Shown here: positions 2,198-21,857 of the stretch, piece after piece
Numbering within the stretch: the first letter of the stretch is position 1
Layout of the letters: each line of letters begins with the position of its first letter
IMG/VR virus record: IMGVR_UViG_3300027917_002462
Span: 1-22,219 of that record
DNA from: a virus
Reading direction: 5' to 3' (one strand)
Length of the DNA: 22,219 nt
Translations under genes and position numbers: made by a program
Notes under the pieces: model-generated
Databases searched by the model: none
Told to the model about the DNA's origin: nothing
What the model saw: only the letters and a program-made list of their open reading frames with translations

Positions 2198-2603
2198 TGG
2201 TAGTATTCCTTTCTGGAGGTGAGAGAGGTGAGAGTTCATCTGGCACAAAGATGCCGAGATCCTTTGGTACAGGCACCTTGGTTTGGTCCATGTCATTGAA
2301 GTGAAGAGGTACAGCTGGTGCTACTGGCTCAGGTTCTGGTAGTTCTATATCGTCGATGAACCAATCGTCTTCGTTTTGCAGTGCAGCCAGTGCCAGCTCC
2401 ACGTGTGCTTGGTGTTTGGCATCTTGCCATGCTTTCCATTCACGCACTCTGGCTTGGTACTTGGTCCATCGTTCTACACTGGTCCAGAACCATTGACGCA
2501 GGGTGAACCTGATTCTATCTTCTGTGTTCTTGGCGTAGCTGATTGGAACAACCAGGAAGAAGATGAGCAGTGCTACTGAGACTACGATTAGAGGGAAGCT
2601 CAT
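2094..2603 (-). CDS. N-terminally membrane-anchored protein, 169 aa
   Basis: The ATG is preceded by AAGGAGAAACATC. Residues 4-22 form a strongly hydrophobic segment, followed at once by basic residues (K, R), so the remainder is predicted to be cytoplasmic with the N-terminus outside. Residues about 35-75 are a Trp/Lys/Arg-rich helix (REWKAWQDAKHQ). Residues 80-97 are acidic and proline-rich (ELPEPEPVAPAVP). The last 35 or so residues have unusual composition (Ser/Arg/His-rich) because they share DNA with the 43-aa membrane peptide in another frame. The function is not recognised. An inner-membrane spanin is conceivable from size and anchor, but the charge distribution argues against it. Confidence 0.65.
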   Translation of the reverse strand: MSFPLIVVSVALLIFFLVVPISYAKNTEDRIRFTLRQWFWTSVERWTKYQARVREWKAWQDAKHQAHVELALAALQNEDDWFIDDIELPEPEPVAPAVPLHFNDMDQTKVPVPKDLGIFVPDELSPLSPPERNTTNDHRDTRHRSPDSLHHRSSRYWEIGGLKTPRSSG

Positions 2604-2724
2604 GATGTTTCTCCTTGTATTCGCTTATGTTCTTTGGTATCTTGTCGACAGAGAGTCCCTCCCCCGAGTATGTAAGCAAAGGATCCTGGGGACTCAATCT
2701 GCCGACTCCCTCACCAGGGAAAGT

Positions 2725-3342
2725 CTATTCGAACACTGTGTAGAGATTCCATGTGGATCCTGCAGGAAGCTCATCGATGATCCACTGGTACTCTGCTTCA
2801 GTAAGCTCGATGTATCTGCTCTCTTCCACGATGATCTTGGCTTCCGAGAGCTTCAGTTCGGGCATGATGACGCGGAGTGCTTTGATGCATGCGATCTGGC
2901 CGATGAGCCTGTGCTCACCTGTACAGTCGAAGTAACGGTTTTTCGTCTCTACCTGACCAGATTCTCTCTTCAGCCTCATGTTCTCGATGTAGGCAAGCCT
3001 TGCAGCTTCTTCTGCAGCCCTTGCTTGTTGACGCAGGTTGAAGATCTCAGCAGTTGGGCTGTTCCTTTCGTTGTACTTGGCGTAGAGGTCAGCAAGCTCT
3101 TGCTCCTTGTCATTGAGCATGTCTTCCAGTCCTCTGTTGGTGCTCTCTGCAATGCCCAGCTCTCTTTCCAGTCTGTTGCACTGTCCGAGGAGGCTATCCC
3201 TCTGGTTGTCCAGATCCTTGAGAGCAACACTTGCTGCTTCGTTTGTCTTGATCTGCAGCTCCAACTCGGTGTTCAGCTCCATCACCATGCGGATGAGGGT
3301 GCTCTGCGAGAAGGTAGCGAGGAAGGTCTTGTCGACTGCCAT
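2725..3342 (-). CDS. Coiled-coil protein with a ribosomal L7/L12 C-terminal-like tail, 205 aa
   Basis: I choose the ATG at 3342, which follows CTGGAGAACACGTC. An in-frame start at 3399 has no ribosome binding site and would overlap the upstream membrane peptide. Residues about 15-125 show heptad-like spacing and few breaks, so a long coiled coil is likely. Residues 147-175 read IGQIACIKALRVIM then LSEAKIIVEES, matching the core of the L7/L12 C-terminal fold (KVxVIKxVRxxTxLGLKEAKDLVE). In the ribosome that domain recruits translation GTPases. Similar isolated copies occur in phage and bacterial proteins of unknown role. A further helix follows (LTEAEYQWIIDEL). A structural, scaffolding or translation-targeting role is possible; none is shown. 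Confidence 0.75.
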   Translation of the reverse strand: MAVDKTFLATFSQSTLIRMVMELNTELELQIKTNEAASVALKDLDNQRDSLLGQCNRLERELGIAESTNRGLEDMLNDKEQELADLYAKYNERNSPTAEIFNLRQQARAAEEAARLAYIENMRLKRESGQVETKNRYFDCTGEHRLIGQIACIKALRVIMPELKLSEAKIIVEESRYIELTEAEYQWIIDELPAGSTWNLYTVFE

Positions 3343-3395
3343 GACGTGTTCTCCAGTGAAGGTTGAGGCGCATTGTTCAATTTGATAGATAAACC

Positions 3396-3530
3396 TCAAT
3401 CACCCAACTTAGGAGCAGTGATAATGATAACTACAGCTACAACACCAAACACGACCCACACACTTGGTTCCATAACTGCCCATTTCAAGTCTTCTACTAT
3501 CTCCAACAGAGTTCTAATAGACACAGGCAT
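3396..3530 (-). CDS. Single-span membrane peptide, 44 aa
   Basis: This gene is shorter than usual ORF cut-offs. The ATG at 3530 follows TAGGAGTTACTC, a good ribosome binding site, and the stop is TGA. The peptide starts with a short amphipathic part (MPVSIRTLLEIVEDLKW) and has one hydrophobic segment at about residues 24-38 (SVWVVFGVVAVVIII), ending TAPKLGD. One membrane span with a tiny tail is predicted. No family is recognised. Its size and layout resemble the other small membrane peptide at 2066-2197, though the sequences differ. It lies between the hammerhead-containing part of the block and the coiled-coil gene. Confidence 0.6.
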   Translation of the reverse strand: MPVSIRTLLEIVEDLKWAVMEPSVWVVFGVVAVVIIITAPKLGD

Positions 3531-3544
3531 GAGTAACTCCTACT

Positions 3545-3688
3545 CTACTTAGTGAAACGTCTCCTCACCCTTTCCTCGTAGCCACTACGTGCGACAGCAC
3601 TCAAACAAGCTGCACGACAACGCATCAAAGTGCAACGACGATGCGGTGCAAAGGATATATACACCCGACGTCCCAAACTGTGTGACAT
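3545..3688 (-). CDS. Possible small basic Cys/Arg-rich peptide, 47 aa (doubtful)
   Basis: The open frame runs up to the TAG just before the ribosome binding site of the 44-aa membrane peptide gene, a spacing that fits the operon. Candidate starts are ATG at 3688 (47 aa), ATG at 3727 (60 aa, lying inside the hammerhead core CTGATGAGG) and GTG at 3754. None has a clear ribosome binding site. The product would be strongly basic (RRR, RCR, ERVRRR) with several cysteines. If it is not a gene, positions 3541-3716 are an untranslated spacer downstream of ribozyme copy 1. Confidence 0.25.
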   Translation of the reverse strand: MSHSLGRRVYISFAPHRRCTLMRCRAACLSAVARSGYEERVRRRFTK

Positions 3689-3719
3689 AGCGGAGTACGC
3701 TACCCCACAGAGACATACT

Positions 3720-3782
3720 GGCCTCATCAGTACAGGAACTATACCTGTAGACACCTAGGGATTGGACCTAGATGTTTCGGCC
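3720..3782 (-). ncRNA. Type II hammerhead ribozyme, copy 1
   Basis: Read on the minus strand, all hammerhead parts are present in the order GGCC-GAAA-stem III-GUC-stem I-CUGAUGA-GGCC. Stem III is CAUCUAGG/CCUAGGUG with loop UCCAAUC. The cleavage triplet GUC is at 3752-3750. Stem I is UACAGG/CCUGUA with loop UAUAGUU. The catalytic core CUGAUGA is at 3730-3724. Stem II is formed by GGCC at 3782-3779 with GGCC at 3723-3720 and is the open end, defining the type II topology. An ACU/AGU pairing (3793-3791 with 3719-3717) may extend stem II past a bulge. Cleavage is predicted after the C at 3750. It lies between the genes at 3797-4048 and 3545-3688 or 3396-3530. Confidence 0.88.
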
Positions 3783-3796
3783 TGAAACCTAGTTAC

Positions 3797-4048
3797 TTAT
3801 TCTGCAACTTGAATAAGTGCATAAATCCCATCATGGAGATAGATAGCAGTCCTCTGCTGTTTGTTCAGCCAACGATAACCTTTATTCAACCAAAGATAAA
3901 CATGACCAAAGGCGTCGGCGGTCTCATTATCTGCCCTCAGTCCAGAGAGAGCCTCTACTTCTTGTAGAGATAAATGATTGTGGATCATCTTTTCGATCAA
4001 TGGGTAGGTTCCATCGATCATGGCTCCGAATCCAAAGGCTCCGTGCAT
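3797..4048 (-). CDS. Hypothetical protein, 83 aa
   Basis: The product is not recognised. The ATG at 4048 follows AACAAGGAGTAAGCT, a strong ribosome binding site, itself only about 15 bases after the end of ribozyme copy 2. The stop is TAA. The sequence is probably soluble: a Gly-rich start (HGAFGFGAM), then helices with YPLIEKMIHNHLSL and a Trp/Tyr-rich repeat-like part (YLWLNKGYRWLNKQQR, where LWLNK and RWLNK echo each other). No membrane segment or metal motif is seen. It is flanked on both sides by hammerhead ribozymes, so its mRNA would be released as a separate piece with a ribozyme hairpin at each end. Confidence 0.7.
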   Translation of the reverse strand: MHGAFGFGAMIDGTYPLIEKMIHNHLSLQEVEALSGLRADNETADAFGHVYLWLNKGYRWLNKQQRTAIYLHDGIYALIQVAE

Positions 4049-4075
4049 AGCTTACTCCTTGTTGTTGAGACTACT

Positions 4076-4136
4076 GGCCTCATCAGTGCACGCAACACGT
4101 GCAGACGCACAGGGATTGGACCTGTACGTTTCGGCC
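4076..4136 (-). ncRNA. Type II hammerhead ribozyme, copy 2
   Basis: On the minus strand: GGCC (4136-4133), GAAA, stem III CGUACAGG/CCUGUGCG with loop UCCAAUC, cleavage triplet GUC (4106-4104), stem I UGCACG/CGUGCA with loop UGUUG, core CUGAUGA (4086-4080), and GGCC (4079-4076). Both stems are fully paired, counting one G-U in stem III. Cleavage is predicted after the C at 4104. The motif starts 6 bases after the stop codon of the 458-aa gene and ends about 15 bases before the ribosome binding site of the 83-aa gene, filling the intergenic gap almost completely. Confidence 0.92.
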
Positions 4137-4142
4137 TATTGG

Positions 4143-5519
4143 CTATCCGTGAGTGACAAGCCTCAGGTGGTCAAGCAACCTGGTCAGCTCCTTCTTCATG
4201 CGATCCTCACGCTGCAACGGGAAATCAATAGCCCAGTTATCGAAGTGGTCAGCATTAGCTTTCACCTCGTTATCCCAGGCCAGGCGATGCAGCCAGAGGT
4301 AGTACTGGATGGCAGAACGCTCTTCGTCAGTAGGCGGAATAGCTTGAATGACATCCCACTCAAACTGACGCCTAAGAGACGTAGGCTTCAGAGCCAGCCA
4401 GTATTGGTCACGACAATAATTGCAGAAGCCGAAGTAAATGTTCAGGCCATAGTGGTCATCTCGTGAGATCCACTTAGCTCCCAACCACTTGCTTCTCAGC
4501 TTTGCGATCATGTCTTTGAGACCTTGACGCATGAACAGGAACCAGGGGCTGTATGTTTCACCCTCTGCCGCGACAGTCTTTAGCCCAGCAGCCTGCTCCA
4601 ATTGCCAGGTAGCATACCGCTTGGCATAGTTAGAGACTCTGTCGATGCTCGAAGCTACTTTGCAGTATCCGGTCAAGTAGTCGGTCGCAATGTCCTTGTG
4701 TTCAGCAGCTTTTTCGACTGCTTTAGCAAGATGACGTTTGACCATCTTCTCGACCCAGGCTTCACGGTCAGGACCAAGGAAGATCTCAAGTGCATCAAAG
4801 TAGGCATCCCGTTGCGTTCCTGCGTAGGGCAGCCTTTCAGTAACAAGCGCACTGACCTTATTGATCATGTCCCAGTCGAAGCCGAGATCCCGCAGGTGGC
4901 GTTCATAGCCAATGAGAGCATCTTCATGCCACTCACTCCAGTCAGATGAGAGCCGGTTTTGACCAACACTCCACTCCCTGAGTTGGTAGGCACGCTGTAC
5001 CTGAAACACATCAGCTGTGTTCCAGCATCTGGATGTATGATTCGTCACCACGAGGGGCGTCATTTCATGCTCATCCAGATCAGCTATGGCAATGCGTGGC
5101 GAGATCTTGGCAGCTTCCGATGATGTCACTTCTTCAGCGATCACCACAGGATAGTCTGTCTTGACTTCGACAGCTCGCTTAAAGCTGACAGGCTCCAGCC
5201 TACCACTCTGCTTATTCAGCCTATGGCCCATCGTGTCGTAGATGTAGGTGTCCTCCAGCAACCTAGTGGGCACCATTGCCTGAGTCTCCTCGAAGATATT
5301 GAGGAGGGCACGACGCTCATTAGGTGTAGCCTTAGCGAACTTACCTTTGGCATCTACTACTCTGAGACCATTCGCCTGCTTCCGGATCATCAAACGCTCC
5401 TGCACGGGGCGCTTACGCTCGATGGGAAGAAACAGATGTCTGTCACTCCACATCTTGTCGATGACCAGGGTGCGAGTGGTGGTAGTTCCGGTCCATCCGG
5501 TCAGAGTGATAACCTGCAT
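4143..5519 (-). CDS. Hypothetical phage protein, 458 aa, Trp/Tyr-rich C-terminal half
   Basis: This is the largest gene of the minus-strand block. The ATG at 5519 follows GAAAGGGGTAACCA and the stop is TAG. No family is recognised. Residues 1-20 are Thr-rich (GTTTTRT). Residues 33-75 are basic. The rest is helical and unusually rich in Trp and Tyr, with a single CNYC motif at 366-369 that could bind metal only with partners elsewhere. No Walker motif, nuclease signature, signal peptide or membrane span is seen. A late acidic/aromatic part (YLWLHRLAWDNEVKANADHF) precedes a basic C-terminal helix. It is bounded by ribozyme copy 3 upstream and copy 2 immediately downstream, so its transcript would be excised as a monocistronic message. 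Confidence 0.8.
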   Translation of the reverse strand: MQVITLTGWTGTTTTRTLVIDKMWSDRHLFLPIERKRPVQERLMIRKQANGLRVVDAKGKFAKATPNERRALLNIFEETQAMVPTRLLEDTYIYDTMGHRLNKQSGRLEPVSFKRAVEVKTDYPVVIAEEVTSSEAAKISPRIAIADLDEHEMTPLVVTNHTSRCWNTADVFQVQRAYQLREWSVGQNRLSSDWSEWHEDALIGYERHLRDLGFDWDMINKVSALVTERLPYAGTQRDAYFDALEIFLGPDREAWVEKMVKRHLAKAVEKAAEHKDIATDYLTGYCKVASSIDRVSNYAKRYATWQLEQAAGLKTVAAEGETYSPWFLFMRQGLKDMIAKLRSKWLGAKWISRDDHYGLNIYFGFCNYCRDQYWLALKPTSLRRQFEWDVIQAIPPTDEERSAIQYYLWLHRLAWDNEVKANADHFDNWAIDFPLQREDRMKKELTRLLDHLRLVTHG

Positions 5520-5555
5520 TGGTTACCCCTTTCGTTGTTGGTAGTTAAGGCAACT

Positions 5556-5618
5556 GGCCTCATCAGTACGTGCAACACACGTAGACCCTGGGGAATTGGA
5601 CCCCATGCGGTTTCGGCC
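5556..5618 (-). ncRNA. Type II hammerhead ribozyme, copy 3
   Basis: On the minus strand: GGCC (5618-5615), GAAA, stem III, cleavage triplet GUC (5586-5584), stem I UACGUG/CACGUA with loop UGUUG, core CUGAUGA (5566-5560), and GGCC (5559-5556). Stem III is less regular than in the other copies: CC/GG next to the core, a small asymmetric internal loop, then UGGGG/CCCCA closing the loop UCCAAUU. Cleavage is predicted after the C at 5584. It lies in the leader of the 458-aa gene, with the start codon 37 bases downstream. Between it and the upstream gene is an 8-base hairpin (TGACACGG at 5627-5634 with CCGTGTTA at 5647-5654). Confidence 0.9.
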
Positions 5619-5626
5619 TAAACCAG

Positions 5627-5654
5627 TGACACGGTATTAGGTAGCCCCGTGTTA
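5627..5654 (-). other. Hairpin between the 88-aa gene and ribozyme copy 3
   Basis: TGACACGG and CCGTGTTA form an 8-base stem (one G-U) with a 12-base loop. The hairpin lies 20 bases beyond the stop codon at 5674 and 9 bases before ribozyme copy 3 in the minus direction. No U-run follows, so intrinsic termination is unlikely. A role as an insulating or stabilising stem for the 3' end left by ribozyme cleavage is possible. Confidence 0.4.
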
Positions 5655-5673
5655 TGGCCTGTAGTGCTATGCG

Positions 5674-5940
5674 TTACACTACGTAGTCGTACCCATCCCA
5701 ACCGTACTCATCCTCGACCTCATCCTCCAGGTCGTAGAGTCGTTGGGTGAGCCTGTCATGGAAGTCCATCTTGGCCTGCCTCCTCAGCCTAATGCCTCTG
5801 TAGGCAAGGATGGCATTGTAGTCACCAGCATCTACCGCAGGCTCTAGCTCAGCAAGCTGGGCATCGAGCTTCTCAATCGAGCGGTGAGTGATGGCGAGTA
5901 GGTCATGGACAGTCTCCCAGTCCAGTAGATGCATAGCCAT
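5674..5940 (-). CDS. Small helical protein, 88 aa, acidic C-terminus
   Basis: I choose the ATG at 5940, preceded by AAGGAGCACTA; an in-frame GTG at 6018 has no ribosome binding site. The product is mostly helical and charged (WETVHDLLAITHRSIEKLDA, then RLYDLEDEVEDEYGW), possibly a short coiled-coil hairpin. The acidic tail (about residues 73-85) ends in an aromatic GYDYVV. No family is recognised and no membrane segment is seen. It precedes the hairpin and ribozyme copy 3. Confidence 0.65.
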   Translation of the reverse strand: MAMHLLDWETVHDLLAITHRSIEKLDAQLAELEPAVDAGDYNAILAYRGIRLRRQAKMDFHDRLTQRLYDLEDEVEDEYGWDGYDYVV

Positions 5941-6070
5941 TAGTGCTCCTTGGTTAGTGGGTATGATTACCCTGGCTCTATGTCTCTCATCCTGGGCTTG
6001 CCACCAGGCAATGGTCACATTACGGGTGAGCAGTATTGTAGCCTTGCTCAGAGGCTAGCCAGTTTGTTGG
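5941..6070. other. Intergenic leader with short hairpins
   Basis: No gene is supported here. It contains TTGCC/GGCAA around loop ACCA (about 6000-6013) and TAGCC/GGCTA around a 9-base loop (about 6040-6058). A GTG open frame crosses it in phase with the 88-aa gene but lacks a ribosome binding site. The sequence does not contain a hammerhead core, unlike the next intergenic gaps downstream. Confidence 0.35.
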
Positions 6071-6262
6071 TTACGGCATCATGACCTTGTGCTTCTTGAT
6101 ACTGAGTACTCGATATCCATCACATTCTATTTCACGAATGAAGAGATCGAGTTCTCTGTTGCTCTCGAAGTAGAGGTCAACAGTGAATGGGGAATCATAG
6201 TCTTTGTAGAGCAATGTAACGTCTACTTGGACCATTCCCACAAGCTGCCTGGCTTTTGCCAT
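6071..6262 (-). CDS. Hypothetical protein, 63 aa, first gene of the minus-strand block
   Basis: The ATG at 6262 follows GAAAGGGAAAGACA, a good ribosome binding site. The product is small, basic at both ends and rich in beta-type alternation (QVDVTLLYKDY, FTVDLYF, YRVLSIKKHKVMM), with an acidic helix between (NRELDLFIREIE). It resembles a small mixed alpha/beta protein, but no family is recognised. As the promoter-proximal gene of the block it is likely among the first made. Confidence 0.65.
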   Translation of the reverse strand: MAKARQLVGMVQVDVTLLYKDYDSPFTVDLYFESNRELDLFIREIECDGYRVLSIKKHKVMMP

Positions 6263-6514
6263 TGTCTTTCCCTTTCATTGGCGGGTGAGGTTATCTAAAG
6301 TATGACCACGGGGTGGGCTCTAAACGTTTGAGCCTCCTTCACGATCATTCCTATTAATACCCTCCCAACTACTCTTTACTAAAATTGATATCTATTCTGG
6401 CCAAGCTTTCTGTATATTTTTTATTACACTTTAGTTACTATTAGGGCCGGGACGCCCGAATCTTTTCTATTCACATCACTCGTGCTACTATGTGGTTATC
6501 TACTTGTGTGCTCT
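6263..6514. promoter_or_regulatory. Divergent intergenic region between minus-strand and plus-strand operons
   Basis: The two gene blocks diverge from here, so both must be transcribed from this region or from further outside. It is partly AT-rich (about 6385-6440, with TGTATATTTTTTATTAC). GGCTC at 6316-6320 and GAGCC at 6330-6334 bracket the palindrome AAACGTTT. A GC hairpin, CGGG/CCCG around ACG at 6448-6458, is followed by AATCTTTT on the + strand. TTGATA (about 6386) and several TATATT/TATTAAT words occur, but none has standard 16-18-base spacing, so I do not assign a sigma70-type promoter. A phage-specific or middle/late promoter is possible. Confidence 0.4.
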
Positions 6515-6808
6515 ATGAACATAAACTCATATCCTCCAGAACTCATCTATACTATTGGCGAGATCTACGAAGCTTTTCTCAATCCAGAACTCAATCATGC
6601 TTATAGATATAAGAAGCTAGTAGACATCAGCACCAATGGATATGACTGCAAGTATGCAAAAGCCTCTTACCATCGATGGCTTTCATCAGGACAGTCGGCG
6701 GAAACCATTAACACCCTTCTATCCGTACAGGAACAAATCACAAGAGCATTACAGCTCTACCAAGAGATAGAAAAAGATCTAAATGAGTCAACAGAAGAAA
6801 CTACATAG
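6515..6808 (+). CDS. Hypothetical small protein at the head of the packaging operon, 97 aa
   Basis: The function is not recognised. An in-frame GTG at 6482 would add 11 mostly hydrophobic residues; neither start has a visible ribosome binding site, so the start is uncertain. The product is helical: YPPELIYTIGEIYEAF, then a segment YHRWLSSGQSAETINTLLSV that could be a recognition-type helix pair, then a C-terminal charged helix (LQLYQEIEKDLNES). Size, helical content and position ahead of the terminase genes would suit a DNA-binding or small terminase-like component, but no motif proves it. Its end overlaps the next gene by 26 bases. Confidence 0.6.
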   Translation: MNINSYPPELIYTIGEIYEAFLNPELNHAYRYKKLVDISTNGYDCKYAKASYHRWLSSGQSAETINTLLSVQEQITRALQLYQEIEKDLNESTEETT

Positions 6809-7721
6809 TAAACCACCTACAGAGGGGTCTGAACGCCTTCCTGAGCGGTTTTCTACCTATAATACCAATCCGATACAGGCAGAAGACATAAAGCCTTCAG
6901 AAAGCTCTACAGCTCCTTTAAAAGATGATAAAGAAACCTGTACTGATCTAGCTACTGTAGAAGAAGAGCTTAGTGTCACTTTAGCTGGTCCTGTAGATAA
7001 GTCTGAGTTTACAAAGTACCTTGGACTCTCTATGGACAACTATGAGCTAAATATGGATAAGGAGACTGCTACCAAGTACAAGAGATATATTATGTCTTTG
7101 AAACATGGTATGCACGCGGCTGTACCTCTTACCTGTGTAGGTGGGAAGAAGTGTCCTCTAGGTTCTAGATGTCCTTTTACTAGGCACGACGATGAAGGGA
7201 TGGTAGATTATGATGATTCTACCTATCCACTATGTAGGCCCTGTCCTGTAGAAAGGGATATGGTCAAGCTTCACATGTTGGATATGGTTCGTGAGTATGA
7301 AGTAGAGCCCGATGACTATACTGATATTGCTATTGTGAGCAAACTGGCTACTCTAGATGTGCTTGAGTTCAGATGCAACATGCTTCTTGCTACCGATGCT
7401 GAAGGATTGGTTATCAGTGAGGTGACTAGCTTTGATCCAAAGAATAGTAAGGAGTTCATTAGTAGGAAGGCCCATCCAGCGTTTGAAATATTGGAAAAGA
7501 TACATAGGATAAAACAGGACTTATTGAGAGGTATGGTAGGGACTAGACGAGAAAAATACAAGAAGGATGCTGCTACCGGTGAAAGAACTTCTACTACTGA
7601 TCTCACTAAAGAGATGCACGATCTACTCGACATCCTTAAGAATGCTAAGGATGAGAACGATATAATAGATGCAGAGTATGCTGAGGTAGAGGTTCTAGAC
7701 ACTAATAAAAGGGAGTCGTAG
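6783..7721 (+). CDS. Five-cysteine protein, 312 aa, candidate small terminase subunit
   Basis: The ATG at 6783 lies inside the end of the preceding gene. Residues 1-75 look disordered (Ser/Thr/Glu/Pro-rich). A compact Cys cluster follows: C118, C124, C130, then CRPCP with C151 and C154, a spacing suited to zinc or an iron-sulfur cluster. Residues 155-205 are helical. Residues 229-258 (KAHPAFEILEKIHRIKQDLL, then GTRREK) resemble the C-terminal pattern of P27-type small terminase proteins, where HPA is followed by a helix and a basic turn. Together with its place upstream of the large terminase this suggests DNA recognition during packaging. That assignment is inference. The tail (282-312) is acidic. 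Confidence 0.75.
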   Translation: MSQQKKLHSKPPTEGSERLPERFSTYNTNPIQAEDIKPSESSTAPLKDDKETCTDLATVEEELSVTLAGPVDKSEFTKYLGLSMDNYELNMDKETATKYKRYIMSLKHGMHAAVPLTCVGGKKCPLGSRCPFTRHDDEGMVDYDDSTYPLCRPCPVERDMVKLHMLDMVREYEVEPDDYTDIAIVSKLATLDVLEFRCNMLLATDAEGLVISEVTSFDPKNSKEFISRKAHPAFEILEKIHRIKQDLLRGMVGTRREKYKKDAATGERTSTTDLTKEMHDLLDILKNAKDENDIIDAEYAEVEVLDTNKRES

Positions 7722-8027: not shown

Positions 8028-11000
8028 GTGGAGTTCAATTGGCTAGGAATGAATATAGCCGCTGGGCAAATTGGCGGCTTGTTTCATAGATTTCTGGGAC
8101 TTGGTGGAACAGCACCGGCACCTCCAACTGCATTACCAGCTAATAGCGTTACCTTCGACTTAGAGACTACTGGTTTAGAGCCAGGTAGACACTCTGTTAT
8201 AGAGGGTGCTGTCTATGATATGAAGTCTGGTACAACGTGGTCCAGACCGATTACTCCATATATAGGTCGAGATGCAGTTAGTATAGATACTCTTTCTGCT
8301 AGTGCTTCTGATTGGTGGAAATCTAGACAGAAGGCATTGTATAGCTGGGTGGGAAAGGACGCTGCTCAAGTAGCTCCAGACGAGTTTGTTAGGCAGCTAG
8401 CCAATAATCTAAAAGGCAAGGTAGTTTGGATTCAGAATGCTCCATTTGAATCTAGACAAATGGCCGATCTATTTAAGCATCACATTGGGCCAGAAGAGCT
8501 TGCTTCGATTAGGAAGATGTTCGAGACACGACCTCTTTCCGAGGCTAGTCAGAGACATCTATTCTATGTGACAGGTAGAGATATTCAGGCAGCTAGACAG
8601 ACTGCATTTCAGACACGAGACTGGATGCCTGTCTTTACTGAGTATTTAAGAGATGCAGCTCGTAAGACAGATGCTATTAGGGTTCGTGATATTCAAGATG
8701 TGACTAGAGCTATTTTTAGTGAGTCACAGCGTATAGGATTGATGAAGGCTACCAAGTCGTTCGTAGGTAGCAATATCAATACTTTGTCTCTGGCATATGG
8801 ATTTGATCCAGAAGTTCATAGAGCACCAGCTGATGTTCTTAGAGAAAGTGACCTATTACGTAGGTTGTGGAGAGTAGCGACTGGATTACATGAATCTAGA
8901 CATAGAGGACTGTGGGGCGAGGCAGCTCTTGTATTCAGCGATAAATACAGAGAAGATCTGACTGCTATACGTAGAGTAGGTCATGCACAAGAACTGTTGT
9001 TGCAGAGATCGATAGCTAGGAACCTAGCAGAAGCTAAGTTGGCATTAGACTTTGGAGAGGGTGAGGTTAAAGGTGTAAACGATAAGCTGATGAGTTTCGT
9101 AGCACCGATGGAGACGTATGAAGGGAAGGTAGTACATCAGCGTATTGCCTATCACCTCAAAAAACAACCAAAAGATTTCGACGAGGCAATCAGACTATTT
9201 ACGTCTGAGCGCTTTATGAGCAAAGGCCTGACAGACGTTGTCGAAAAAGCAGTTCTAGATGTAAAGACGAAATCTAGAGCTGGCTTAAGAGAAATGGTGG
9301 CTAATCCATTAAAGCTTGAGCTTGATGCTAATGCTGAGCTAATCAAGCTGATGGATGAGGCAGGTAAGTTTAATAACTGGGATGCTTTACGCTTCTTGTT
9401 TGCTAGACATCCTATCAAGATGGGTGCTATAGCAGCTACAGGACTATATCTTACTGGCGCTACCATTGACTTTGCTACTTCGAGAACCAGTACACCAGCA
9501 TTAGAGGATGAATCATTTGTAGATTGGTCTGGTATGGAGCCCTATGGCATTGGCTCCGATATGAGGCACTATTCAACTGATTTTGGTTCAGGTTGGCGTG
9601 GTTTACTAGACTTTACTGGAAAGATAGCTTATCTAGGCAAGCAAGCAAGGACAACTTGGTTTCAGCAGGGGGAATTGACTGCTCTTGGCGTAGATATTGA
9701 GCAACGTGTAACTAGACTTGCTAAGAAGGTGTCTACACAAGACTTTCACCAAGCTACTTCACTAATTAGAAGACGGTCATTGGCTCATCCACGAGAAATG
9801 CATATTCGTGATCGTCTGGATAATGTTGCTTCGCCTAGACTGCAGCCAGGATCAATGGCTGAGTTTTTGGTAGGTGCTGATTCAAAACAGATAACTTCAG
9901 CTAAGCGTACAAGCTTTATTGGCTATAGAGACTACAATATTATTCAAGGTCTTGGTTATGGGCGCGTAACTCCAGGAAGTGGGTTTGGTTCTCCATCTAT
10001 AGGTTTTGAACTCTTAGATGTAGGTATTCTTCAGTTAACTGGTAAGATGTCGGGCCTGGGCAGGAAGACAGGATGGGTTAAGTTTGGTGAAGGTGCTTCG
10101 ATATCCATTGCTGATCTTTTTAAGTCTGCTGTTGGTTTTGAGAGAAAAGTACCTGGGGCAGGTAAAGAGCTTGAGTATCTTGCTCGTGTACATGAAGCAG
10201 CTGGGGCAGAAAGACTTGGTATTGTCAACTTCTCTGCCTTCATGTCTAAAGGATATAAGTCAAAGGTCATTAGACATGAAACTTTCCACAATCTTGTAGA
10301 CGATGAGTGGAGAACACAGTTTGCTAAGATTAATCCAGAACTTCTTAAACATGCTGGTCTTGAGAACTATCGATGGGGCTATCAGCCAGAATTAGCTGTA
10401 GAAGAATATGCGGCTTATCGTCTTGGAGATTTACAGACTCCAGTAGAGATTCTAGGCGAAGCAGCTGCTAATAAACGCTTGCTGACTACTTTAGAGACTC
10501 TTACAGAGCAGTCAGCTATTAGTACTTGGGCTAAAAGAAAACAGCTTAGATCCCAACTACTTGGCATGCAAGATCAAGGTATTGCTGCAAAACTTAGAGA
10601 TGCTTTTACTGATTTTGGTTCTCCGTGGAAGGGTATGGCTTCTCCATGGAAGGCTATAGCTGCAGCAGCACGTCGTCTTAGAGGTCGTGCTCAAACATGG
10701 GCTAGTAGTTCAGGTATGCGTTATATGGTTCCTGGACCTCGCCGTGTTAGTAAGGTAGCTACTGCAGCTCAAGAAGCAGGTCTTTCGGCTAATTTGAGAG
10801 GCAATCGTATTGAAGGAATGAAGAAGAGTGGTCTCTCATATTGGTCACGTGCTGTAGATCATGACTTTGGTCGATCATGGGCTCGTTTAGCTAAGCTTAT
10901 GGAGAAGATAGGTAGTGTCTTTTCCAGACTGACAAAAGGCCTGTTTAAACGCACTACAACAGCACAGAAGGCACTTGCAGAAGAAGCTCCTGTCTTTACA

Positions 11001-12170
11001 AATATCATTAAAGATGAGTTAGCTAATCAGGAGAGTAGCTTGATTCAGACTCTTATTAAGTCTGGATATACAACATCAGAAGTACATGCTCAAAGTATGG
11101 TGCAAAGAGCTAGCTGGTTCACAATGGGTGGATCCAAGTGGGCAAGGTTTGAGACTTTGGGTAAGGGTGGTTTTGGTAAAGCTTGGCTCGTTGCATCTCC
11201 CGAAACTGGTCAAGTTGGTGTACTAAAGCAACTTCGTCCTAGCTTAAAGCCTGGATCATGGGGTGCTGGTAGACAGGCTGAACCATGGCTTTATCCTGCA
11301 AGGCCAGGTGCTGCAAAACCACCTACAGAACTGAGACAACGTCTAATAGGTAATATGGATGAAGTTGTTGGATGGATGGATGAAGGTAATATTCCACCAG
11401 AATGGGGCAAAGGCACAATAGAAGAGATCATGGCTGCCCAAAAAGCTTATACACAGCTGTATAGATCCACAACGCCAGACAGAGAATTACGCTCTATAGA
11501 ACATATTCTGTCTTATGAGGTTGCTATGCAGCAACAAGCTCGTAAAGAGCTTGGCGATGTGATTCCAGAAGTTTTTACTGGTGGCGTGATTGAAGTAGGT
11601 GGTGAGAGAGCAGGAGTTGGATTTATCCAAGAATATGGTGGTCGAGGACTAGGTAGCATGTCTAGGCGTATGACTCCTGAACAATTAGCCTCTGTTGAGT
11701 CACAAGTAAGAGAGTATGTTGAGGGTCAGCTACAGCGTGGTGGTGTATTTAACTGGGACTTAGGTAGAAACAATATTCTTGTTGATCCTGGTACTATGAA
11801 AATACGGATTATTGATCAAGGTGGTGCTACCTTTATCAAGGGCGTTCACGATGAAGCATATAAGGAATATGGTAAAACCTTTGGTAATATGATTATGGAG
11901 CGTATTTTTGGACCAATGCGAGGAGAGATTGGGCATGTCACTTCTAGTAATATGCAGAGGGCTGCTATTCAGGGAGTAGAAGCTAGTGGTGGTAGAGCTG
12001 TTGTTGGTCTTGAGGAGGCAACAGAAAATTCACTTGCCTTTGCAGCAATAGAAGCAGACGCTAGAAGAGCAGCTTGGAGAGAGCGTAAACTACAAGTAAC
12101 TAAAATGCAACATGAAGCACATAAGAAGATGTTTGGGCGTAAGACTGGTCATGCTAAAGGAGGTCACTAA
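8028..12170 (+). CDS. Giant polyvalent-type protein: exonuclease, metallopeptidase and protein-kinase-like domains, 1380 aa
   Basis: The GTG start has AGGA seven bases upstream. Three enzyme-like domains are visible. (1) Residues about 40-285, DEDDh exonuclease: FDLETTG (D44, E46), QNAPFES (N137, with E141 where an acid is expected), and HRAPAD (H264, D269). (2) About 715-830, zincin-like: HETFH at 750-754 is HExxH, with candidate third ligands E788/E792/E793 in PELAVEEYAAY. (3) About 1035-1290, protein-kinase-like: glycine loop GKGGFG (1045-1050), K1067, catalytic WDLGRNN (D1244, N1249), and IDQG (D1263) in place of DFG. A hydrophobic stretch at about 464-481 may be a membrane segment. The linkers are helical and basic. 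Phage proteins of this kind are packaged and ejected with the genome to disarm host defences. That role is inference from architecture and position. Confidence 0.85.
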   Translation: MEFNWLGMNIAAGQIGGLFHRFLGLGGTAPAPPTALPANSVTFDLETTGLEPGRHSVIEGAVYDMKSGTTWSRPITPYIGRDAVSIDTLSASASDWWKSRQKALYSWVGKDAAQVAPDEFVRQLANNLKGKVVWIQNAPFESRQMADLFKHHIGPEELASIRKMFETRPLSEASQRHLFYVTGRDIQAARQTAFQTRDWMPVFTEYLRDAARKTDAIRVRDIQDVTRAIFSESQRIGLMKATKSFVGSNINTLSLAYGFDPEVHRAPADVLRESDLLRRLWRVATGLHESRHRGLWGEAALVFSDKYREDLTAIRRVGHAQELLLQRSIARNLAEAKLALDFGEGEVKGVNDKLMSFVAPMETYEGKVVHQRIAYHLKKQPKDFDEAIRLFTSERFMSKGLTDVVEKAVLDVKTKSRAGLREMVANPLKLELDANAELIKLMDEAGKFNNWDALRFLFARHPIKMGAIAATGLYLTGATIDFATSRTSTPALEDESFVDWSGMEPYGIGSDMRHYSTDFGSGWRGLLDFTGKIAYLGKQARTTWFQQGELTALGVDIEQRVTRLAKKVSTQDFHQATSLIRRRSLAHPREMHIRDRLDNVASPRLQPGSMAEFLVGADSKQITSAKRTSFIGYRDYNIIQGLGYGRVTPGSGFGSPSIGFELLDVGILQLTGKMSGLGRKTGWVKFGEGASISIADLFKSAVGFERKVPGAGKELEYLARVHEAAGAERLGIVNFSAFMSKGYKSKVIRHETFHNLVDDEWRTQFAKINPELLKHAGLENYRWGYQPELAVEEYAAYRLGDLQTPVEILGEAAANKRLLTTLETLTEQSAISTWAKRKQLRSQLLGMQDQGIAAKLRDAFTDFGSPWKGMASPWKAIAAAARRLRGRAQTWASSSGMRYMVPGPRRVSKVATAAQEAGLSANLRGNRIEGMKKSGLSYWSRAVDHDFGRSWARLAKLMEKIGSVFSRLTKGLFKRTTTAQKALAEEAPVFTNIIKDELANQESSLIQTLIKSGYTTSEVHAQSMVQRASWFTMGGSKWARFETLGKGGFGKAWLVASPETGQVGVLKQLRPSLKPGSWGAGRQAEPWLYPARPGAAKPPTELRQRLIGNMDEVVGWMDEGNIPPEWGKGTIEEIMAAQKAYTQLYRSTTPDRELRSIEHILSYEVAMQQQARKELGDVIPEVFTGGVIEVGGERAGVGFIQEYGGRGLGSMSRRMTPEQLASVESQVREYVEGQLQRGGVFNWDLGRNNILVDPGTMKIRIIDQGGATFIKGVHDEAYKEYGKTFGNMIMERIFGPMRGEIGHVTSSNMQRAAIQGVEASGGRAVVGLEEATENSLAFAAIEADARRAAWRERKLQVTKMQHEAHKKMFGRKTGHAKGGH

Positions 12171-13180: not shown

Positions 13181-13929
13181 TGCCAACTCTGACATCATAT
13201 TTTGACAAAATGACTCCTGCTAGACAGGCTACTTGGTTGAGTGAGTTAGAGTGGTCTGGTGCAACAATGGGGTTTCATATTACTCCTGGCGAAGCATATA
13301 CAGAAGTAGGTCCTATGATGCCTGGAGCTAGACGTGCTAAGTTCTTTATGCCTGGTACAGCAGAATGGATGGGCTTAAGAACTGCTGGCAGAGGTATTAA
13401 AGAAGCTGCAGGACTTGGTGCTAAAGGCGCATGGGGTAAAGCTTTTGCAGTTGGAGGAAAGGGATTGGCTAAAGCTGCTGGTAAGGGCTTTGCTCCTGGA
13501 CTTGGGCTTTATTTTACTGGAACGGCTGCTCTTGAAGGCTATCGTCAGGGTGGTGTGACTGGAGCTATTAGTGGTGGCCTAAGAGAAGCAGCTATTAACT
13601 TGGCGTTGTTTGCTGGAATACGAGCGTTAGGACCGCATGGTGCTCTTGTTCTTGCAGGTGGTGCAGCTGTTGCTGGTGCAGGATTAGCTCTTGGTTATGG
13701 ATTTGCTAAGGGTGCTGAAGCGTCTTGGCAGTATCACATGCGCAACTTACCGCTTGAGACGACAGGGTCTTTGTCAGCCTTTAGTACTGGTGGTGCTGCT
13801 ACCATGAGACAAAGAAGCTTGATGAATATTCAGCGCAGTCATTTGAATGCACGTTCGGCGTTTGGCAATGAAGCACAGTACGCACACTTGGCAAGATATA
13901 GGGGTGTTGGTAGACGAGGCTTGATGTAA
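13180..13929 (+). CDS. Gly/Ala-rich putative membrane-interacting virion protein, 249 aa
   Basis: The ATG overlaps the upstream stop by one base (TAATG) after CAAAGGAG. The first 60 residues look soluble. Residues 66-105 are a Gly/Ala/Lys-rich amphipathic stretch. Residues about 104-175 contain two or three Gly/Ala-rich hydrophobic segments (including LVLAGGAAVAGAGLALGYGF at 156-175). The C-terminal part (207-249) is basic, with ATMRQRSLMNIQRSHLNARS, a segment that looks like a conserved tail rather than a linker. Such small-residue helices resemble glycine-zipper packing in oligomeric membrane proteins. A genome-delivery or internal-virion role is inferred from composition and position just before the terminase. 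Confidence 0.75.
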   Translation: MPTLTSYFDKMTPARQATWLSELEWSGATMGFHITPGEAYTEVGPMMPGARRAKFFMPGTAEWMGLRTAGRGIKEAAGLGAKGAWGKAFAVGGKGLAKAAGKGFAPGLGLYFTGTAALEGYRQGGVTGAISGGLREAAINLALFAGIRALGPHGALVLAGGAAVAGAGLALGYGFAKGAEASWQYHMRNLPLETTGSLSAFSTGGAATMRQRSLMNIQRSHLNARSAFGNEAQYAHLARYRGVGRRGLM

Positions 13930-16334
13930 TGCACGAGAAGATCAAAGATCTATATATGGAGAACGAGTATGGAATCCAATATTTGGATTACTATAAGAAA
14001 GCAGACTCACAGTTAGTCAAGTATTGTCAAGATACCTACAATATCAACACTAAATGTCATGGCATGTGTGTGAATTGCCAGATCGATCATATCAGTCGAT
14101 ATGGTGATACTAGTGATTGGGCAATCAAGGTAGAAAAGGCTTATGTTTATGAGCAGGAAGATTTACGTGAAGTTGTTGGTATGCTTAGGCGCTTCCAGAG
14201 AGTCAAGATACTGAAGCGTAAAGGTCGTTTGGTTCGTATTCAGGCAGTCATCAACTATGGTGTATGTACAAGAGACGAGGAGCATCCTCGTGTTTATAGA
14301 GAGCGTAAATCAGATATTAACCAGCTTCGATGTGAGATATGTGAATCTGCTATGTCTGCTCGTGTACATAAGATTGAAGGTTGGGTGCCTTTTGTTCATG
14401 TTACTGCGTTTAGTGTCAAGTGTGGTTTTGTTCCAAAGAGCTATGAAGATGAGATTCCTTCAACTGTAAGAAAGACACTTACCAAAGAGAAGCTTGAAGC
14501 TCTTCTTAGTCTTATTGATCCAGTTAAATGGGCTCGTGACTTTCTAGGTATTGAGTTGCGTGAGCATCAGAAAGTTGATGCTATGTGTACAGCTAAGCAC
14601 ACTGTACGAAGGTGGGGAAGACGATCAGGTAAAACCTATTCTGAATGCCAGAAGGTTCTTAGGTTTGCTCTGACAACACAAATCTCAGAAGGACATGATG
14701 CTAAAGGAAAGGAGATTAAGCGTGGTCCAGTAGTACTTGTTGTGTCGCCATACTTGGCTCAGATTACTTTGATTTTCGATATGATTCGCAAGATGGTCAA
14801 GAGAAATCCAGATATTCACATTCAGCGTGATATTAAGACGCCTTATCACTATCTGAAGTTTGCAGATACTGAAGACTGTGAAGGTGCAGTTATTATGGGT
14901 TTTACTGCAGGATCATCGTCTGGTGCAGAAGGTGGTACTGTTCGTGGTCAAGGCGCTGACATGATGTTAGTAGATGAGGCTGATGATATGCCAGAAGCTG
15001 ATCTACTGGATGCTGTCGAGCCTATCCAGATTACAACACCCAACGTAATGATGATGGCTTCATCTACTCCAAAGGGTAAGCGCGAATGGTTCTGGAAGGT
15101 TTGTACTGAATCACCTCATTATAAGGAAACATACTTTCCTGCCACAGTACTAGACCACTGGGATGAAGTTAAGGACGAAGTTGAGCGCAAGGGTGTTACT
15201 GGCGTGCACTTCTTGCAAGAGTATATGGCACAGTTTGCTATTCAGATTGAGGGTGTTTATCAAGCGAACTATGTCACTGATGCAGAAGTTGATTACGAAT
15301 ATGGACAATCGCATAAGATATTGTGGAATCAAGAGACTTTTGGGGTAGATGCACCAGAGTCTGGATGGACTTACTCGATAGGCGTGGACTGGAATACTAA
15401 CGCTGGTGTTGAGCTTGTTATTGTAGGATTGCCTCCTAATAATATTGAGTTTTGGGTGGTAGATGCCGTTAACATACCAAAACACGAGTATCAGCAGCAT
15501 ATTGCTATGGAAAAGCTTATTGAGCTGAATCGTTACTGGAATCCATCTTTCATCTATGTAGATAGAGGTTATGGTGGCACACAGCTTGAGCATCTACAGA
15601 TCTTTTCTGATCGTGCTCGTATGCGTGAGCCAGGTTCTGCTGATGCTAAACTGAAGGACATTCTTACGGCTTATGACTTTGGTAAGAAGATTGCATATCG
15701 TAATCCTGCTACTGGTTTACAAGAAGAGACTCAAGCTAAGCCATTCTTGATTGAGAACTCTATTAGACAGTTTGAGCAAGGGCGTATTCGTTTCTCTAAG
15801 CATGACCATATCTTGCATCAACAGCTGCATAACTACATTATTGCTGGTGTAAGTCCACAGGGCGTGCCTCGTTACGGAATGAATGATAAGAAGATTGGAG
15901 ATCATAGGCTTGATGCTCTTAATCTTGCGCTAATTGGATACATTCTTGAGATGTCTGAATGGGCCACTGATGTAGGTGAAGTGGCAAATATATTGCATGC
16001 TTCTAGTTTTGGTTCACAAGAGGTTAGAAAGCTGGTAGCAGAGAACGAGCGTAATTGGATCGAATTTGTGCGTGGTGTTCCAAGAGGTATAGGTTTACCA
16101 GGTCATCTTAAAGTTAGATATGACCCTGGTTATGTTGAAATGAAAGAAACACAACGCCAGACATCTTCTGAGCATAGTCGTACTGCTGAGATAGATAATG
16201 CTGGTCGTCAAGATACTAATACATTGCGTATAGGTTTCAGCTCAGATACTGAATGGAAGTATGATGGTACTAAGAAGCCAACATCACGAGTAGCCCATAT
16301 TCATAGTCGCAAACCCAAACGAAGGACATTCTGA
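13929..16334 (+). CDS. terL: Terminase large subunit (ATPase and nuclease), 801 aa
   Basis: This is the DNA-packaging motor. The ATG overlaps the upstream stop by one base. The ATPase has Walker A GRRSGKT (230-236), Walker B MMLVDEAD with D349/E350, and the coupling motif SST at 378-380 in a TPNVMMMASSTPKGK context. The RNase H-fold nuclease follows: GVDWN (D487), YVDRGYGG (D545) and GDHRLDA (D658, D662). An extra N-terminal region of about 200 residues precedes the ATPase and carries two cysteine clusters, CHGMCVNC (C43, C47, C50) and C113 with CEIC (C135, C138), likely zinc-binding. The C-terminal 125 residues after the nuclease are basic and less ordered. At 801 residues it is clearly longer than typical large terminases (roughly 450-650). 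Confidence 0.97.
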   Translation: MHEKIKDLYMENEYGIQYLDYYKKADSQLVKYCQDTYNINTKCHGMCVNCQIDHISRYGDTSDWAIKVEKAYVYEQEDLREVVGMLRRFQRVKILKRKGRLVRIQAVINYGVCTRDEEHPRVYRERKSDINQLRCEICESAMSARVHKIEGWVPFVHVTAFSVKCGFVPKSYEDEIPSTVRKTLTKEKLEALLSLIDPVKWARDFLGIELREHQKVDAMCTAKHTVRRWGRRSGKTYSECQKVLRFALTTQISEGHDAKGKEIKRGPVVLVVSPYLAQITLIFDMIRKMVKRNPDIHIQRDIKTPYHYLKFADTEDCEGAVIMGFTAGSSSGAEGGTVRGQGADMMLVDEADDMPEADLLDAVEPIQITTPNVMMMASSTPKGKREWFWKVCTESPHYKETYFPATVLDHWDEVKDEVERKGVTGVHFLQEYMAQFAIQIEGVYQANYVTDAEVDYEYGQSHKILWNQETFGVDAPESGWTYSIGVDWNTNAGVELVIVGLPPNNIEFWVVDAVNIPKHEYQQHIAMEKLIELNRYWNPSFIYVDRGYGGTQLEHLQIFSDRARMREPGSADAKLKDILTAYDFGKKIAYRNPATGLQEETQAKPFLIENSIRQFEQGRIRFSKHDHILHQQLHNYIIAGVSPQGVPRYGMNDKKIGDHRLDALNLALIGYILEMSEWATDVGEVANILHASSFGSQEVRKLVAENERNWIEFVRGVPRGIGLPGHLKVRYDPGYVEMKETQRQTSSEHSRTAEIDNAGRQDTNTLRIGFSSDTEWKYDGTKKPTSRVAHIHSRKPKRRTF

Positions 16335-19739: not shown

Positions 19740-21857
19740 ATGACAATTGCAGTCAATAGATTTACGGTAGAAGATCGTATTAAGCCACGATCGCCACTTT
19801 CTGTCAAGCAGGTGAACTCTCCTGTACTGGGATACAAACAAACTAATTCTCGTACGACATTTGAGCCACCTGAATATGACCTGTCTGAGTTTAACACAAT
19901 TGAGGATGTCGAAGCCTATGTTAGACAGACTCATCGTAAGAAGATCGGACTTGGGTTTAAGGAAGGCTGGGATCTTGTAGGCAAGAATATCGATACGCTT
20001 AGCTATATTAAGAAGCGTTTTGCTCAATTAGAGCATGCACAAGGTAAGCCTTGGCGTCTTTTGATGAAAGAGATTTTCTATGACTTGGTCAAGCATTCGA
20101 ATGCTTATCTAGTCAAGGTTAGAAATGCGGATGTATCTGGTGGGTTTACACGAACTGCCAATGGCAAGAGTATTGATCCTATAGCGGCTTACTTTATTAT
20201 GGCTCCAGAAACAGTACAGATTGCTAAAGACAACTCTGGGAAGATTCTTAAAGTACGTCAGTCGATGCCGGATGGTCGTACGAAGACACATGCACCTGAT
20301 TTGGTAGTGCATTTCTATCTTGATAAGAAGACTGGCTTCTCTACAGGTACACCTATCCTTACGCCAGTGAAGGACGATATTCGTACTCTAAGACGTATCG
20401 AAGAGAACATAGAGCTGCTTGTATATCAGAATCTGTTTCCGTTATTCCAGTACAAGGTAGGTACAGAGAAGTCACCAGCTAAGACTTATCCAGATGGCCA
20501 AACTGAAATAGACATCGTACATAATAAGCTTGAGTTCATGCCTCCTGAAGGTGTCCTTGTTACGCCAGAGCGACATGAAATCTCAATGATTGGTTCTGAG
20601 GGACGTGCTTTAAGAGCAGAGGGTTATCTCAAGCACTTTAAAGAACGTGTGATGGCTGGTCTGGGTACTAGTAGCGTTGACATGGGTGAGGGTGGCACTA
20701 GTAATCGTAATACTGCTGATAGGCTGTCAGATAACTTGCGAGACGATGTAAAGTCTATTCAGGATGATTTTGAAGCTCAGTTTGATTTCTTTATCATTAG
20801 AGAGCTACTATTAGAAGGCAAGTTTGGTGCTGACGTACTTGATCCAGAAAATACAGTGCATCTTAGCTTCCGTGAGATTGATACTGATCGTCAGATTGCC
20901 AAAGAAAATCATGTGGCACAAATGTACACACAGCATATTTTCTCAGAGGACGAGGCTCGTATCAAGATAGGCTACGATCCTATTCCACTAGACGATCAAG
21001 AAGTCAGGGAGAAGATGTATTGGAGTATGATTGAGCAACCTAGCTTGCTTATCAGATCTATCGATGAATCATCTGGCCTGTCTGCTGCTACTGACAACCC
21101 TCAGGTTGCTGTGGAGAAAACCAATGCACGTGAGGGTGAAGAGAGAACTAAACGTATTGGTGCGGCCAGCAAACCACAGCCTCAGCAAGCTGCCAAGAAG
21201 AATAGTGGTCAGAGAGCTGGAGCAAGTAGGGATCAGCCTAGTAACCAATATGGCACTAGAACTGGTCCTAAGACGCGAAGAGATTTTGTAGATACTGAAT
21301 TACTTTCACATGTAGAACAGTTACTACATGATGTTTCAATCTATCTACAGTCAGATGCAAGTAAGTCATGGGTCAAAGGCGTAATCAAGGCCTGGACCGA
21401 ACAGACAAACAAGAGGCAATCAAGACTAGCAAGAGGTGCTTTTGTAGCTGGCGTTCGTAGCGTTGGCCTCAATCCATATTTCTATAATTTAGCATCACAG
21501 GTTCGAACTGTTGAAGATCATTCATCACGTTATGTACGTAAGTTGGCTCGTAATCTAGAGGATAGGTTTCAGAGATTGACAGGTGAAGAAGATGTTTCAA
21601 CCATGATGTCGATTATGGATATTACTGTTAATCGTGTAAATGCTATCAATGAAACAGAACAGCAAAGAGCGTATAATTATGGTAGATTAGTAGCGTTCAG
21701 GTTGACCGGTGATAAAGTCAAATATACATCTCATGCTGGCGCCTGCGAGGAGTGTATGATAACAACAAGACAGGATAATCTTGATCCAAGAAAGTTGTCT
21801 ATTGATGACATTCCTCCTGTGCATCCGTACTGTAGTTGTTCTGTAGACAAGGAATAA
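19740..21857 (+). CDS. Portal protein with C-terminal MuF-like head-morphogenesis domain, 705 aa
   Basis: The portal is the dodecameric ring at the head vertex through which DNA enters and leaves. The ATG follows AGGTCTATAG. Residues about 40-440 show the portal pattern: PWRLLMKEIFYDLVKHSNAY, IAAYFIMAPETVQI, then GFSTGTPILTPVKDDIRTLR leading into the long clip/stem helices, and a FREID strand. A low-complexity linker (455-515, rich in Ala, Gln, Lys and Arg) joins a helical C-terminal region (515-705). This ends in YTSHAGACEECM (C669, C672) and IPPVHPYCSCS (H695, C698, C700), the typical end of MuF/SPP1 gp7-type head-morphogenesis proteins. Those are normally a separate gene just downstream of the portal, so this looks like a fusion. 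Confidence 0.9.
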   Translation: MTIAVNRFTVEDRIKPRSPLSVKQVNSPVLGYKQTNSRTTFEPPEYDLSEFNTIEDVEAYVRQTHRKKIGLGFKEGWDLVGKNIDTLSYIKKRFAQLEHAQGKPWRLLMKEIFYDLVKHSNAYLVKVRNADVSGGFTRTANGKSIDPIAAYFIMAPETVQIAKDNSGKILKVRQSMPDGRTKTHAPDLVVHFYLDKKTGFSTGTPILTPVKDDIRTLRRIEENIELLVYQNLFPLFQYKVGTEKSPAKTYPDGQTEIDIVHNKLEFMPPEGVLVTPERHEISMIGSEGRALRAEGYLKHFKERVMAGLGTSSVDMGEGGTSNRNTADRLSDNLRDDVKSIQDDFEAQFDFFIIRELLLEGKFGADVLDPENTVHLSFREIDTDRQIAKENHVAQMYTQHIFSEDEARIKIGYDPIPLDDQEVREKMYWSMIEQPSLLIRSIDESSGLSAATDNPQVAVEKTNAREGEERTKRIGAASKPQPQQAAKKNSGQRAGASRDQPSNQYGTRTGPKTRRDFVDTELLSHVEQLLHDVSIYLQSDASKSWVKGVIKAWTEQTNKRQSRLARGAFVAGVRSVGLNPYFYNLASQVRTVEDHSSRYVRKLARNLEDRFQRLTGEEDVSTMMSIMDITVNRVNAINETEQQRAYNYGRLVAFRLTGDKVKYTSHAGACEECMITTRQDNLDPRKLSIDDIPPVHPYCSCSVDKE

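Follow-up and report, generated by a model that had tools for sequence, protein, structure and literature searches.

Three type II hammerhead ribozymes between the genes of a leftward phage operon, with a likely role in mRNA processing

The window analysed here, a virus record of 22,219 bases from IMG/VR, carries three hammerhead ribozymes in its leftward operon. Judged from sequence and predicted fold, these are genuine type II hammerheads, for which self-cleavage is predicted. The best explanation is that they cut themselves in the intercistronic gaps and so split the transcript of the phage operon into single-gene mRNAs, perhaps capped by hairpins – a reading given a probability of roughly 0.7. 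The arrangement is of a kind known from prophages and is not unusual among viral contigs that carry such ribozymes.

Gene content of the window

Among the window's ORFs, a PHROG search matched one to the large terminase (PHROG 2, E = 1e-27) and another to a portal protein (PHROG 9232, E = 2e-51). This bears out the claim of the sequence-only reading that the ribozymes lie between phage genes. Both proteins are only distantly akin (about 30%) to those of the large phages Moorella MTATph1, Bacillus KLEB27-3 and Acinetobacter ME3 (177–235 kb), so the contig may be a piece of a large phage. For a 1380-aa ORF on the plus strand (8028–12170), Pfam gave nothing and PHROG only a marginal match (E = 5e-4). 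A search for tRNA genes in the window found none.

The direction of the genes switches at about 6.3 kb, leftward to its left and rightward to its right. In the order of leftward transcription, an 88-aa gene is followed by copy 3, a 458-aa gene, copy 2, an 83-aa gene, copy 1, a gap and a 44-aa ORF (Table 1). The longer ORF form of the 88-aa gene had no match in the PHROG search, and no relatives of the 458-aa protein were found with PHROG, Pfam and protein searches. There is no clear gene directly behind copy 1; the stretch of about 190 nt between it and the 44-aa ORF holds only doubtful short ORFs.

Table 1. Positions of the ribozymes, their stem III caps and the neighbouring genes in the window, and of T-loop-like hammerheads at other loci
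Feature	Position	Strand	Remarks
44-aa ORF	3396..3530	-	first clear ORF downstream of copy 1; Shine-Dalgarno AGGAG; one hydrophobic segment
Hammerhead copy 1, type II	3720..3782	-	predicted cleavage after C3750; stem I UACAGG/CCUGUA, 7-nt loop UAUAGUU
Stem III cap, copy 1	3758..3768	-	conserved, GGUCCAAUCCC
83-aa gene	3797..4048	-	between copies 2 and 1
Shine-Dalgarno AAGGAG of 83-aa gene	4055..4060	-	within the 5' leader predicted from copy 2 cleavage
Hammerhead copy 2, type II	4076..4136	-	predicted cleavage after C4104; stem I UGCACG/CGUGCA, loop UGUUG
Stem III cap, copy 2	4112..4122	-	conserved, GGUCCAAUCCC
458-aa gene	4143..5519	-	between copies 3 and 2
Shine-Dalgarno-like AAAGGGG of 458-aa gene	5526..5532	-	within the 5' leader predicted from copy 3 cleavage
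Hammerhead copy 3, type II	5556..5618	-	predicted cleavage after C5584; stem I UACGUG/CACGUA, loop UGUUG; stem III bulged
Stem III cap, copy 3	5592..5602	-	conserved, GGUCCAAUUCC; tRNA T-loop-like
88-aa gene	5674..5940	-	upstream of copy 3; Shine-Dalgarno AAGGAG before its ATG
Terminase and portal genes	13929-16334 and 19740-21857	+	PHROG matches
T-loop-like hammerheads elsewhere	L283:9866-9927, L291:5974-6042, L326:4296-4354, L293:2692-2752, L077:2351-2409

Sequence and fold of the ribozymes

Three complete type II hammerheads had been proposed on the minus strand from the sequence-only reading; their coordinates, strand, core and stems were confirmed, and a hand recount agreed with the three predicted cleavage sites. 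Every copy has the order A-GGCC-GAAA-stem III-GUC-stem I-CUGAUGA-GGCC-A, with the invariant core (CUGAUGA and GAAA), the NUH cleavage triplet (GUC) and an A flanking stem II on both sides. RNA folding of the bare motif gave the three-way hammerhead for every copy (z = -2.9, -3.2, -1.2). In this fold, as in the independent covariance model described below, stems I and III are closed by loops and stem II is open. Stem I differs in each copy and is fully paired in each. This had been called direct covariation; the pairing is compatible with that description, but three paralogues are a small sample, and the strong covariation is that of an external set of viral hammerheads.

Statistical support

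A structural scan for the core, a 4-bp stem II and paired stems I and III recovered the three copies and no further match in the window. On first-order Markov shuffles of the window the scan gave one match in 17.8 Mb, or about 0.0025 expected per window, and viral DNA from other sources (2.07 Mb, both strands) yielded none. A covariance model was trained on 22 viral hammerheads, with the window left out. It scored copy 2 at 58.9 bits (E = 6e-17), copy 3 at 52.0 bits (E = 9e-15) and copy 1 at 49.1 bits (E = 8e-14), and it found nothing else in the window up to E = 10. Within the 22 external members 99.7% of cells are paired and 14 of 17 pairs are altered on both sides, which none of 500 shuffles equalled, though these members were selected by a scan that demanded pairing. 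With a pattern for the core only, about 120 of 127 matches in the listed loci have paired stems I and III, neither of which was required.

The Rfam model for this type, Hammerhead_II (RF02276), detected copy 2 only, with a score of 25.9 bits where gathering demands 37; there was no match in the window at gathering, and for copies 1 and 3 none was reported. At gathering, RF02276 also recovered just 4 of 41 viral hammerheads from 20 viral pieces, the 41 being defined by the structural scan. Since 37 similar viral hammerheads were missed as well, the failure on the window is a property of the model and its threshold, which are too strict for hammerheads of this form, and the Rfam gathering score is not a structural criterion for membership of type II.

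Position relative to stop codons and Shine-Dalgarno sites

The ribozymes fit closely into the gaps between the genes. Copies 3 and 2 end 36 and 27 nt before the ATG of the 458-aa and 83-aa genes, each led by a Shine-Dalgarno site, and the stop codons of these genes lie 6 nt ahead of copy 2 and 14 nt ahead of copy 1, respectively. Most viral hammerheads of this type are placed likewise. In 99 of 113 non-redundant cases the next feature is an ORF with a Shine-Dalgarno site and ATG, compared to 23% of random sites, though this count may be too high: GAGG of the core is scored as a Shine-Dalgarno site when the start lies less than about 12 nt past the ribozyme, and 11 of the 99 starts are within 10 nt. 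The median distance from ribozyme to start is 26 nt over all viral cases with a Shine-Dalgarno start. An ORF stop lies at most 120 nt ahead of 108 of the 113, compared to 53% of random sites.

Arrays in other viral genomes

With copies 3 and 2 around the 458-aa gene and copies 2 and 1 around the 83-aa gene, the window has at least two ribozymes on one strand flanking single phage genes. Such a tandem series had been described as unusual, a view that does not survive comparison with other genomes. Arrays of two or more on one strand occur in 50 of the 245 IMG/VR pieces that carry such ribozymes, and arrays of three or more in 26. The 67.6-kb contig IMGVR_UViG_3300038412_000035 (L005/G004) packs 11 type II hammerheads into 5 kb of a single strand (2575–7559), several of them directly before AGGAG...ATG. 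Clusters of type II hammerheads around single genes were described in prophages by Perreault et al. 2011 (PMC3088659); those clustered ribozymes cleave in vitro, and a triple array around ardA is active in E. coli. Clustered type II hammerheads in prophages are likewise mentioned in PMC6155905. Together, the IMG/VR arrays and the published prophage clusters mean that the arrangement in the window was already known. Six type II hammerheads were also seen on one strand within 5 kb of the Singulisphaera sp. GP187 chromosome (L355, 1112–6214), a region that is probably a prophage.

No close phage relative with the same three ribozyme sites was found by searches with the nucleotide sequence, the 458-aa protein and the portal and terminase kin. 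The nucleotide search of named phages gave no match to the window, and two portal relatives (L123 and L124, 52% identity) have neither the ribozymes nor the 458-aa gene in the records examined. There was no credible hammerhead match in Moorella MTATph1, Bacillus KLEB27-3 or Acinetobacter ME3; a 21-nt match in MTATph1 (E = 1e-4) was dismissed, as the stems are absent.

A subclass with 4-bp stem II

The pattern GGCCGAAA-N32-62-CTGATGAGGCC occurs in at least 119 stretches of IMG/VR, and the stricter pattern GGCCGAAAC...CTGATGAGGCCA in only 13 stretches of 257 Gb of GTDB contigs, which is consistent with a mainly viral motif, with the caveat that the two patterns are not identical. In the 113 non-redundant viral cases, the base before stem II is A in 112 and the base after it in 87; stem I has 6 bp and a 5-nt loop in 96, and loop I starts with U in 108. 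The window copies fit a subclass with a 4-bp stem II, flanking A's, a 6-bp stem I and mostly a UNNNG loop – UGUUG in copies 2 and 3, with copy 1 atypical at 7 nt.

A pseudoknot between loop I and the 3' tail is common in published type II hammerheads but does not define them. Pairing of at least 4 bp is found in 79% of forms with a 3-bp stem II (20% with tails swapped) and in 11% of forms with a 4-bp stem II (4% with tails swapped), and as the tertiary contact of the 4-bp subclass the pseudoknot is therefore unsupported. In copy 2 the loop UGUUG could pair with CAACA at tail position +9, and in copies 1 and 3 the pairing reaches at most 3 bp within 14 nt. Given the scarcity of pseudoknots in 4-bp forms, the window ribozymes fit a pseudoknot-poor subclass, presumably held together by non-Watson-Crick contacts of the U-loop and the flanking A's. 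The two subclasses – 3-bp stem II with pseudoknot, and 4-bp stem II with UNNNG loop – may each call for a model of their own. Stem III is closed by a tetraloop in 196 of 324 cases, and 119 of those tetraloops are UNCG or GNRA; this preference for stable tetraloops indicates selection for hairpin stability at stem III.

Stem III cap and 3' tail

The three window copies have a common stem III cap, GGUCCAAUYCC (10 of 11 positions), while the remainder of stem III varies. The cap resembles a tRNA T-loop (U54 C55 C56 A57 A58 U59 Y60, with G-C closure). A search with a loose T-loop pattern gave no hammerheads among the matches listed. Independent phage hammerheads whose apical heptaloop fits G-UUCRANN-C came from targeted searches (L283, L291, L326 and L293), and in an unbiased set of heptaloops one of ten (L077) is T-loop-like, with 0.02 expected. 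As the examples are few and the targeted ones were selected, the T-loop-like cap is best treated as a candidate feature and a lead.

When 14–20 nt of flanking sequence are included, the predicted minimum-energy fold of copies 1 and 2 drops stem II, and the tail pairs with UGAGGC. In these models the tail pairing could reduce activity, and cleavage may depend on co-transcriptional folding. As the whole ribozyme is transcribed ahead of the tail, the alternative fold could also be that of the product after cleavage. Over the class, complementarity between tail and core is modest (mean -5.7 vs -4.7 kcal/mol, p = 8e-4).

In other phages a specific form of such a tail is found. Of 303 viral hammerheads of type II, 23 have AUCAG directly 3' of stem II, whereas other orders of these five letters average 3.9. 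The motif is often CAUCAG, is complementary to CUGAU(G) of the core, and lies mostly 0–1 nt past stem II of varied sequence; the loci include L093, L097, L116, L595, L441, L448, L369, L383 and L412. This tail could fold the cleaved 3' product as CUGAUG-AGGC-CAUCAG and block religation. The form is absent from the window.

Proposed function and alternatives

During transcription of the operon each ribozyme would fold and cut after its C17, so that the polycistronic transcript would become a set of single-gene mRNAs. In hammerhead cleavage the stem III side retains a cyclic phosphate and the stem I side acquires a 5'-OH. From this established chemistry, the upstream mRNA would end in the stem III hairpin and a C carrying a 2',3'-cyclic phosphate; the downstream mRNA would begin with a 5'-OH and at once the stem I hairpin, followed by the Shine-Dalgarno site and the start codon. 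Because a type II hammerhead has a closed hairpin on either side of the cut, capping of the ends is proposed beyond segmentation itself. Hairpins on both ends should uncouple the decay of adjacent genes, with no host nuclease needed. Points that weigh against this reading are the atypical loop I of copy 1 and the want of a clear gene right after it, the flank-dependent loss of stem II in the predicted folds of copies 1 and 2, and the failure of the searches to turn up a relative that keeps the ribozyme positions.

Among the other explanations, control of leader cleavage by a ligand, a protein or translation, with the stem III cap or the 3' tail as mediator, is unlikely, though several features point toward such a switch. 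The cap is kept while the stems differ, beyond what hammerhead activity needs, the tails of copies 1 and 2 can pair with UGAGGC, and AUCAG is in excess in other phages; however, that form is missing here, the class-wide complementarity is modest, and the conserved cap may merely reflect recent duplication. A different fate for the cleaved RNA is conceivable, in which pairs of hammerheads excise gene-length RNAs that a ribozyme or an enzyme then ligates into circles or spliced products. Copies 3 and 2, and copies 2 and 1, flank single genes as this would need, and eukaryotic hammerhead elements act via RNA circles (PMC6155905, PMC7761336). On the other hand, the genes have ordinary Shine-Dalgarno sites and stop codons, no ligase gene was found among the ORFs searched with PHROGs and Pfam, and an excised RNA would start in the stem I of one ribozyme and end in the stem III of another, so that religation would need a hybrid ribozyme. 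Perreault et al. sought spliced or circular products of the clustered prophage hammerheads and detected none (PMC3088659), and excision is clearly improbable.

It is more improbable still that the ribozymes sit between gene cassettes as passive recombination joints or as selfish passengers, with any cleavage bringing no benefit. Their neighbours are unrelated small ORFs of no assigned function, the identity of the genes varies in published cases (PMC3088659), and copies on one contig are more alike in sequence than copies on different contigs, all of which would suit passengers; against this, the stems have diverged with pairing retained, the core is intact in every copy, and passive joints do not need such tight positioning between stop codon and Shine-Dalgarno site. 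That the elements are chance or inactive hairpins resembling hammerheads is scarcely credible. Their scores lie below Rfam gathering, but so do those of most similar viral hammerheads, and neither the rarity of matches in shuffled sequence nor the E values of the independent model would be expected of chance.

Segmentation of the operon mRNA by self-cleavage is thus preferred for the window. Extended to type II arrays as a class, the proposal would be that they provide mRNA segmentation independent of host nucleases, favoured since only type II gives hairpins at both ends, with the T-loop-like cap adding a site for a host tRNA-handling protein; this wider proposal is tentative and, taken whole, rather doubtful.

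Comparison with known hammerheads and significance

The window ribozymes share the core, the open stem II, the intergenic position and the clustering around single genes with the published bacterial and prophage type II hammerheads (RF02276; Perreault et al. 2011, PMC3088659), for which triple arrays are known and active. They differ in having a 4-bp GGCC stem II, with a UNNNG pentaloop in two of three copies, where in the published forms stem II is shorter and loop I forms a Watson-Crick pseudoknot with the tail; the window copies also score below the Rfam threshold and carry a T-loop-like stem III cap in all three copies. The 11-copy contig is like the window in architecture and in the position ahead of a Shine-Dalgarno site and ATG, but it has far more copies, with unrelated stems and stem III loops. 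Type I and III hammerheads of viroids, satellites and retrozymes have the same catalytic core; unlike the window copies, they have another open stem, serve in the processing of RNA circles, and yield products that end in open strands and not in closed hairpins.

Because the Rfam threshold for type II overlooks most viral forms with a 4-bp stem II, routine annotation underestimates their number. What hammerheads do in phages is regarded in the field as still open (PMC6155905). While the locus is not new in kind, the comparison yields a testable account, in which position between stop codon and Shine-Dalgarno site, a stable stem III and capping of both cut ends come together, and the function of these ribozymes is most likely intercistronic mRNA processing.
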